Origin: a bacterium
Lineage (GTDB): Bacteria; NPL-UPA2; JAGMAN01
Length of the DNA: 13,032 nucleotides
Reading direction: 5' to 3'
Assembly (NCBI GenBank): GCA_023130215.1
Contig: JAGMAN010000052.1
Coordinates: forward strand, 1 to 13,032
The notes under the pieces are model-generated. The model did not search any database. It had not been told where the DNA came from and saw only the letters and a program-made list of their open reading frames with translations. Each line of letters starts with the position of its first letter. The first letter of the stretch is position 1. The translations under genes and the position numbers were made by a program. Shown in pieces: positions 3,017 through 5,028 of this stretch.

Positions 3017-3094
3017 ATGGCCAGATCTAAGAGTAAATATAAAAGAAGGCTTCATCAGATCCGCCTCCGAGCTAGGCGGCGCAAGAAGAAATGA
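3017..3094 (+). CDS. Very basic 25-residue peptide, possible ribosome-associated micro-protein
   Basis: An ATG at 3017 preceded by AAGGAAG (3005-3011) opens a 25-codon frame. The product starts MARSKSKYKRRL, continues with HQIRLRARRRKKK and then stops. Fourteen of 25 residues are Arg or Lys. Small proteins of this kind include the bacterial THX-type ribosomal proteins and the AURKAIP1/COX24-like basic peptides. The resemblance is in composition and length, not a proven match. The stop is 64 bases before the receiver-channel fusion, so the two may be cotranscribed, in which case it could also act as a leader peptide. The call depends on the ribosome site and the non-random composition. Confidence 0.4.
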   Translation: MARSKSKYKRRLHQIRLRARRRKKK

Positions 3095-3158
3095 GCAGGG
3101 TTTTAACTACCTGCATATACCGTGGTTGTGGATGTGGTAGCTTTAGGGAGGTAACGCT

Positions 3159-4421
3159 ATGGCTGAGAAGATGCTGGTTATAGATGATGAAAAGGTTGTT
3201 CTGGAATCCTGCCGCAAAATATTTACGAACGAAGGTTTTGATGTTATTGCGACCGACAGTCCTCAAGAGGGTCTCAATCTTATCTCAGGTTCGTCCTTTG
3301 ACGTGATTCTGTGCGACTGGAAGATGCCGGGTTTCGATGGAATGGACGTAGTGGAAGAAATCGATCGACGCTCACCTGATTCCGCCGTAGTTATGATCAG
3401 CGGTTATCCAACGGTGGGTCGGGCGACCGAAGCTATGAAGCGAGAAGCGATGGATTATGTCGCCAAACCATTCACCCCCGAGGAGATAGCCAGTGTCGTT
3501 AAGAAAGCAGTAAGACGCAAGGTGGCAGAGGAGAAAAAAACCCTGGGACGATTCGAGAAGATAATTAAGGCCTGGCAGTTTCCTGTGCCGAGCATAGAGG
3601 ACAAGTCACCGCAAGCGATCGCGGAGACTGTAGCGCAAAACGTGGGTGTTAAGAAGACGACCTCGCCCTGGGCCACTGTTCTGGTTCTTGGTATCTTAGC
3701 TGGAGCATATATCGGTTTCGGAGGTTTGCTTTCAACTACAGTTACTTTTGATATGGCATCAAGATTTGGCATCGGCTTCACTAAATTCATAGCAGGGACG
3801 GTTTTTAGCGTCGGACTGATGCTCGTTGTCATAGCGGGTGCTGAATTATTCACTGGAAACAACCTGATGATATCAAGTGCTATGGCAAAAGAGATAACTT
3901 TCGGAATAATGGCAAAGAGATGGACGCTTGTTTACATTGCCAACTTCATCGGGTCGGTTCTCCTGGCACTACTTTTCTATTTCTCCGGGTTGTGGAAGAC
4001 AGGCGGCGGAGCGCTGGGGACAGCTGCCGTTAATATTGCTTATAGTAAAGTCACGCTCAGCTTCAGCGAAGCGCTTTTTCGCGCCATCGGCTGCAACTGG
4101 CTGGTATGCCTGGCAGTCTGGATGGCCCTCGCCGCTCGCCAAACCGTCGGCAAGATATTCGCCATCTTATTTCCGATAATGGCGTTCGTGGCCATCGGCT
4201 TTGAGCACAGCGTAGCCAATATGTATTTCATCCCCACTGGAATATTTCTGAAAAATTGGGCAGGAATTTCTGCTCCTCAGGGATTTGATCCAAATGCCCT
4301 TGGAGCGCTAAGCTTCTTGTGGAAAAACCTGCTGCCTGTAACAATAGGCAACATAATTGGAGGTGGGGTATTCGTTGGCATGAGTTATTGGAGCGCTTAT
4401 CTCAGACCCTCTAAATCCTAA
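3159..4421 (+). CDS. Response-regulator receiver domain fused to a formate/nitrite (FNT) channel
   Basis: One uninterrupted 420-residue frame with a good AGGGAGGT site upstream. Residues 1-120 are a complete receiver domain: acidic pair Asp9/Asp10, phospho-acceptor Asp53 (ILCDWKMPG), Ser81 in the Thr/Ser switch position (MISGYP) and Lys103 (AKPF). A charged linker (about 121-147) leads into a full-length FNT channel (about 148-415) starting with the usual SPQAIAETVAQ helix. Both family signatures are present: AGAELFTGNN (226-235) and GCNWLVCLAV (311-320). The central pore His350 and Asn354 lie in FEHSVANMYFIP. FNT proteins are pentameric inner-membrane channels for formate, nitrite, hydrosulfide and similar small anions, with a cytoplasmic N-terminus. 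The receiver therefore sits where the N-terminal helix of FocA is thought to influence gating. Phosphorylation-controlled transport is inferred. No histidine kinase is encoded nearby. Confidence 0.9.
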   Translation: MAEKMLVIDDEKVVLESCRKIFTNEGFDVIATDSPQEGLNLISGSSFDVILCDWKMPGFDGMDVVEEIDRRSPDSAVVMISGYPTVGRATEAMKREAMDYVAKPFTPEEIASVVKKAVRRKVAEEKKTLGRFEKIIKAWQFPVPSIEDKSPQAIAETVAQNVGVKKTTSPWATVLVLGILAGAYIGFGGLLSTTVTFDMASRFGIGFTKFIAGTVFSVGLMLVVIAGAELFTGNNLMISSAMAKEITFGIMAKRWTLVYIANFIGSVLLALLFYFSGLWKTGGGALGTAAVNIAYSKVTLSFSEALFRAIGCNWLVCLAVWMALAARQTVGKIFAILFPIMAFVAIGFEHSVANMYFIPTGIFLKNWAGISAPQGFDPNALGALSFLWKNLLPVTIGNIIGGGVFVGMSYWSAYLRPSKS

Positions 4422-4562: not shown

Positions 4563-4615
4563 TAACCTGAGTAAATTTGGGATTAGGTTTTGGTTCTTGT
4601 AAATTCAGGATTTTC

Positions 4616-4660
4616 AAAAACCGTGAGGCTTATTACTCAAATTCACGGTTTTTTGTTTTT
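4616..4660 (+). terminator. Rho-independent terminator or attenuator hairpin
   Basis: AAAAACCGTGA (4616-4626) pairs perfectly with TCACGGTTTTT (4643-4653), followed by further T-rich sequence to 4660. TGAG/CTCA inside the loop offers a competing fold. It is 195 bases after the channel fusion and 40 before the cold-shock gene, so it either ends the upstream transcript or, if the promoter at 4534 is real, acts inside the cold-shock leader. Confidence 0.65.
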
Positions 4661-4699
4661 ATGAGGCCAGTGAACTTAATTGGAGGGGGTGAATAAGGA

Positions 4700-4900
4700 A
4701 TGCCTAAAGGAACAGTAAAATGGTTCAACGACACGAAGGGCTATGGGTTCATTACTCCTGAAGAAGGTAATGATGTATTCGTTCATCACTCCGCCATTCA
4801 GGGAGAGGGATTCAAAAGTCTCCGTGAAGGAGAAGAAGTCGAGTTTGAAATCACTCAGGGCCCTAAGGGCGAACAGGCCACAAACGTAACGAAGGTCTGA
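4700..4900 (+). CDS. Cold-shock protein, CspA family
   Basis: A 66-residue single-domain protein, the family's normal length. It is a five-stranded beta barrel that binds single-stranded RNA and DNA. Both RNA-binding motifs are intact: KGYGFI (RNP1, residues 14-19) and VFVHHSAI (RNP2, 26-33), with the typical start GTVKWFN and the closing ATNV. Members act as RNA chaperones, melting secondary structure, though many are not cold-induced. The GGAGGGGG at 4682-4689 supports the start. It appears monocistronic, with a strong terminator after it and a structured leader before it. Confidence 0.95.
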
Positions 4901-4924
4901 GAAGCGTGAGTTGACCAAAAAGAG

Positions 4925-4957
4925 CCCCAGCTTTATCTATCGAGCTGGGGTTTCTTT
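4925..4957 (+). terminator. Rho-independent terminator of the cold-shock gene
   Basis: CCCCAGCT (4925-4932) and AGCTGGGG (4943-4950) form a perfect 8-bp GC-rich stem with a 10-base loop, followed by TTTCTTT. It begins 25 bases after the stop codon. Confidence 0.92.
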
Positions 4958-5028
4958 ATATCAGGAAAGTATACGGTGAAACACGGTGAAGCAGTGCTGC
5001 TGCGCTGTACAGCAAAAAAGTATTGTAG

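Follow-up and report, generated by a model that had tools for sequence, protein, structure and literature searches.

A receiver domain fused to a FocA-like formate/nitrite channel: a candidate two-component system with a pore as its output

Two-component systems act in nearly all cases through transcription, through enzymes or by binding other proteins. Response regulators with outputs other than DNA binding resemble the REC-FNT protein described here in having a complete receiver with all the phosphorylation residues and, as seen in relatives of REC-FNT, a kinase gene nearby, but in REC-FNT the output is an integral membrane channel, and we know of no characterised response regulator with an output of this kind. 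In GlnK-AmtB a soluble regulator acts on an oligomeric channel from the cytoplasmic entrance of its pore; GlnK, however, is a separate PII protein, whereas the regulator in REC-FNT is covalently attached and would switch by phosphorylation. The SLC5-STAC histidine kinases (CbrA, CrbS) do unite a transporter and a two-component domain in one polypeptide, but there the transporter-like domain is the input of the kinase (PMC9100948), while in REC-FNT a channel sits on a receiver. E. coli FocA is similar to the channel half over the whole FNT domain, in key pore residues, in the Y-L-R C-terminus and in the N-terminal helix. The difference lies at this helix, which in FocA is short and cytoplasmic. 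Without it formate transport in vivo is severely impaired, and its contact with PflB is presumed to be what gates FocA (PMC11841067). REC-FNT has a whole receiver in this place. The Y-L-R C-terminal motif is described for FocA-related FNTs (PMC5572259). A survey of the FNT family from 2017, limited to sequences with six transmembrane segments and a length of 150 residues or greater, has the words response regulator, receiver and fused nowhere in its main text (PMC5525234). Text searches of an open-access library yielded no description of REC-FNT; an earlier notice in a subscription paper or a domain database, for example as an InterPro architecture, is possible.

The fusion gene and its conservation

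The window, by which we mean the whole stretch of 13,032 nucleotides analysed, carries at 3159-4421 on the + strand (the strand of all the parts of the gene given below) a single ORF of 420 residues with an ATG start and no internal stops, assigned as a REC-FNT fusion by Pfam, NCBIfam and PDB sequence matches and preceded by a Shine-Dalgarno-like AGGGAGG at 3145-3151, as read from the sequence. The sequence-only reading had described a complete receiver with Asp53 and Lys103, a complete FNT channel with His350 and Asn354, and no frameshift or stop between them, and each of these points is borne out. Pfam gives near-full matches to Response_reg at residues 6-114 (3174-3500; E 1.1e-26, 93.7 bits against a cut-off of 30.2, profile 2-110 of 111) and to Form_Nir_trans at residues 160-411 (3636-4391; E 2.8e-81, profile 7-239 of 240), the latter part showing six hydrophobic peaks in the hydropathy profile. 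In NCBIfam the FNT part passes the cut-off of the fnt subfamily TIGR00790 (250.2 against 232.3 bits) and misses that of the FocA equivalog TIGR04060 (231.6 against 290.1 bits), which makes it FocA-like but not called FocA. The top sequence matches among solved structures are E. coli FocA for the FNT part (5.7e-53) and many receivers for the REC part.

The AlphaFold2 single-chain model (mean pLDDT 80) begins with the receiver, in which strands and helices alternate, and its long last helix at residues 107-139 (3477-3575), extending into the linker with pLDDT below 50 from residue 128; a short break or hinge at 140-150 (3576-3608), the N-terminal helix of the FNT domain at 151-168 (3609-3662), which aligns with E. 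coli FocA from residue 12, and the membrane helices follow. Confidence is low over linker residues 128-146. The best Foldseek match of the model is full-length FocA (9g49), with a TM-score of 0.93 over the target, that is, the FocA chain.

At least 41 distinct full-length relatives, each in one frame, come from other genomes, among them the single-contig isolate chromosomes of Desulfosediminicola flagellatus and Desulfosarcina alkanivorans. A contig scan with one genome per species (84,980 species) yielded at least 26 fusion loci, 44-93% identical among the matches listed; the frame is intact in 24 of the 26 loci listed, an apparent frameshift breaking L030 and L034. Carriers among the matches listed are mainly Desulfobacterota, joined by MAGs labelled Spirochaetota, Acidobacteria, Latescibacterota and Zipacnadia. 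In a second genome set the class of Desulfosarcina has 26 full-length fusions and one truncated in 389 genomes, the class of Desulfosediminicola has the fusion in 2 of 257 genomes, that of a Syntrophaceae MAG in 2 of 23, and the window's phylum in one of nine, which is the window's own. The two sets overlap; with identical copies and broken frames taken out, the alignment comprises 42 distinct proteins, of which the window's is one, and the relatives are mostly 64-93% identical to the window protein. In the plasmid collection no full-length fusion was found, only matches to the FNT part. Nowhere among the relatives was the fusion seen replaced by adjacent free-standing genes for REC and FNT, although at locus L145 of genome G640 an apparent deletion has left a stand-alone REC followed by a fragment of FNT.

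The receiver residues D9, D10, D53 (3315-3317) and K103 (3465-3467) are invariant in 42 of 42 fusions, position 81 (S81, 3399-3401) is Ser in 41 and Thr in one, and position 11 is D or E; a degenerate receiver is ruled out by this conservation of the key residues. For the channel, the FocA reference row of the alignment agrees with the FocA sequence of the PDB match over residues 12-281. The equivalents of FocA F75, L79, L89, T91, N172, V175, F202, E208, H209 and N213 do not vary among the 42 proteins, nor does the Glu at the position of FocA D88, and the F90 equivalent is kept in 40. Mapping onto FocA places the pore residues of the window's protein at T232 (3852-3854), H350 (4206-4208) and N354 (4218-4220), and constriction residues including F216, L220, L230 and F343 are present as well. 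The C-terminal Y-L-R (residues 414-416, 4398-4406) is mostly kept across the fusions, and the linker varies in length by about two residues, apart from one divergent row. Between the window and its closest relative among the matches listed, L007 (93% protein and 88.7% DNA identity), dN/dS is 0.12 for REC and 0.04 for FNT, while the linker value, with one synonymous change, is unreliable. Judging from these ratios, both REC and FNT are under purifying selection.

The kinase operon of the relatives and the window's own copy

Kinase linkage first emerged when neighbouring ORFs were clustered (18 of 27 loci). A recount by tblastn at one threshold (E < 1e-20, more than 150 residues), for which alone a minimum of three to four kilobases upstream was set, refines the first count and is not independent of it. 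The window is one of 24 loci with at least 2.9 kb of upstream DNA; in 21 of them a histidine kinase gene of the same orientation lies upstream, the match starting 1.4-4.2 kb before the fusion, and the three without are the window, L014 and L031. Judged by similarity along almost their full length, with five examples scanned with Pfam, 20 of the 21 kinases are of the sCache_3_3-HAMP-HisKA-HATPase type; at L019 the match is limited to the kinase half. The H-box is intact in all 16 kinases compared. Most loci have one, two or three stand-alone receivers between the kinase and the fusion, and almost all of these retain complete catalytic motifs. A companion receiver of about 208 residues is encoded at 7941-8615 of L008 and at 32-658 of L007; it has a conserved C-terminal part that ends in WLEQRLSAEIW and belongs to no clear Pfam family. 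Over 16 loci the kinase and fusion distances correlate (r 0.62 for REC, 0.71 for FNT; in a Mantel test of REC against kinase none of 2000 permutations reached the observed value), which fits co-inheritance but may also reflect shared vertical descent.

The origin of the fusion was approached with trees built by a quick method. In that of 97 FNT sequences, whose free-standing members were picked by similarity to the fusion, all 42 fusions fall to the same side of a branch with support 85, and 41 of them group together at 99. All fusion receivers but that of L031 form one clade (100) in the receiver tree; two rows of this clade bear other labels, and these come from the broken frames L030 and L034, whose receivers are likewise fused. 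The receiver of L031 is found elsewhere on a long branch, and this distant REC-FNT from the Zipacnadia MAG (L031 7986-9257, 44% identical) may represent a second, independent fusion. Recent duplication of the companion receiver as the origin is unsupported, as the fusion receivers form their own clade.

The kinase gene that the sequence-only reading had proposed looking for in relatives is present at most of the loci counted, but beside the window's own fusion there is neither a kinase nor a companion receiver. DNA similarity between the window and L007 begins at 3132, 27 bases 5' of the ATG, and L007 retains the companion receiver directly upstream, at the contig end, whereas the window does not. 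L007 is labelled Latescibacterota, and the best ileS match in its genome is partial and 37% identical. Two genomes of the window's genus (69% and 81% complete) lack the fusion, while the genes around it have matches in the window's phylum. On these comparisons horizontal acquisition of the window's fusion looks the simplest reading, a mislabelled L007 MAG being a possible alternative. At least four histidine kinases are encoded elsewhere in the window's genome; one of them has an sCache_3_3 match (1.8e-8) and adjoins an NtrC-like regulator, and another is of the 7TM-GAF type, with no regulator seen in the surrounding stretch examined.

For the window's organism alone, and compatibly with the family-wide explanation favoured below, we regard it as unlikely, if still worth serious thought, that the acquired channel carries a receiver which gets no signal any more. 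The missing kinase and companion receiver, the start of similarity to relatives only 27 bases before the ATG, and a REC dN/dS about three times that of FNT would all agree with such a loss. However, every key residue of the receiver is intact, in 42 of 42 fusions, unlike what decay of the domain would lead one to expect; purifying selection still acts on REC, and the genome has the other kinases named above, including the one with the sCache_3_3 match.

Several features were seen around the fusion gene, near which Rfam detected no structured RNA. A tiny ORF upstream of it (3017-3094) encodes a very basic peptide of 25 residues (MARSKSKYKRRLHQIRLRARRRKKK), resembling a small ribosomal-type protein and with no Pfam match, and a long inverted repeat (GGGCGGGGTGG ... 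CCACCCCGCC) with no Rfam match lies at 2632-2772 between the HAD gene and the fusion. A weak match to the cspA thermoregulator (26.5 bits, below the gathering score of 78) covers the cold-shock gene at 4577-4957, a stretch 84% identical in a genome of another family. The short element 3' of the cold-shock gene (4963-5007) has many copies in two same-genus genomes, and its 29-base core occurs twice in the window's genome. Further upstream are a low-complexity ORF with LGFLG repeats (101-406, borderline DUF3796 match), the gene of the RNA repair nucleotidyltransferase RlaP (397-1182), with a GC of 32% in a 47% GC contig, and, adjoining it, a MazF-like toxin gene (1406-1750).

Proposed phosphorylation-dependent control of the channel and its alternatives

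Domain order, the conserved phosphorylation and pore residues, the near-fixed linker, kinase linkage in relatives and purifying selection are all supported by sequence, and we infer from them that the pore is the output of the receiver. The sequence-only reading had put the receiver at the region linked to gating in FocA, and the fusion point is indeed the N-terminal helix needed for transport and thought to gate (PMC11841067). Since the receiver covalently replaces a PflB-like partner at this helix, we favour phosphorylation-dependent modulation: REC-FNT is probably a membrane response regulator with a FocA-type formate channel as its effector, modulated by phosphorylation of Asp53.

In this mechanism a histidine kinase, in the relatives the operon neighbour with its Cache sensor domain, would autophosphorylate and pass the phosphoryl group to Asp53. 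The switch face of the receiver would then change, and through the extended last helix and the short hinge the N-terminal helix of the FNT domain would move. Since the equivalent helix presumably gates FocA, formate flux through the pore, or its direction, would shift quickly and without transcription; phosphotransfer, as well as gating and its sign, we infer. In the presumed pentamer the pore opening towards the cytoplasm would be surrounded by five receivers. The window's organism has the gene apart from its kinase, and there the phosphoryl group would have to come from a small phosphodonor or from a different kinase encoded in the genome. Formate as the putative substrate is favoured by the pore residues, by the Y-L-R end and by the neighbours of the free-standing FNT nearest to the fusion in the window's phylum (54% identical), which adjoins MTHFR and RACo-like genes and so fits a C1 substrate such as formate. 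The TIGR04060 equivalog cut-off is not reached, and therefore the substrate could be another small anion.

What if the signal runs in the opposite direction, with the channel as input? Formate occupancy or flux would then alter phosphorylation or dephosphorylation of the receiver, reporting formate to the kinase and the stand-alone receivers. There is a precedent in the SLC5-STAC kinases, transporter-kinase fusions that work as sensors (PMC9100948), and the intact stand-alone receivers between kinase and fusion in most relatives indicate that the same kinase has other outputs. We nevertheless consider this arrangement improbable, because the fused part is a receiver and not a kinase, the operon kinase already owns a Cache sensor domain, and a receiver is normally the downstream end of a pathway. 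The presence of two or more receivers per kinase in most loci is also the usual setting of a phosphate sink, and the membrane-anchored receiver might only recruit the kinase to the channel or drain phosphoryl groups, leaving the channel unregulated. This strikes us as quite improbable, since a channel is a costly anchor, the linker length is near-fixed and the helix to which the receiver is attached is the presumed gate of FocA.

An artefact of assembly or annotation that merged two genes can practically be dismissed: the source MAG is fragmented (136 contigs), but the assembly join considered by the sequence-only reading is ruled out by 41 distinct proteins of identical architecture, which come from other genomes and in part from finished chromosomes, and the other concern of that reading, relatives with the two parts always as separate genes, falls away as the architecture recurs as one frame. 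A misbinned or chimeric contig is ruled out as well, because the genes flanking the fusion on both sides have matches in other genomes from the window's phylum (HAD 75%, cold-shock gene 84%, TauE 87% identity, and about 87% DNA identity from proC to ileS).

Meaning for the family

Taken at family level, it seems to us an evenly balanced matter whether REC-FNT, recurrent among Desulfobacterota and some further anaerobes, represents an undescribed class of two-component systems: in these a Cache-domain kinase would phosphorylate a receiver fused to the gating helix and so exert fast post-translational control of formate exchange. Since the join recurs in more than 40 other genomes and mostly follows a gene for a sensor kinase at a short distance, the pore may be under direct control of a sensory signal, and not via genes. 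With a receiver placed on a channel, an external signal would reach ion flux fast and without the involvement of genes. All the parts are defined, so the idea is directly testable with Asp53 variants, and REC-FNT offers a natural handle on the gating of FNT channels, FocA among them. Partners in syntrophic and sulfate-reducing communities use formate as a carrier between them, and it is there that control of its exchange would matter.
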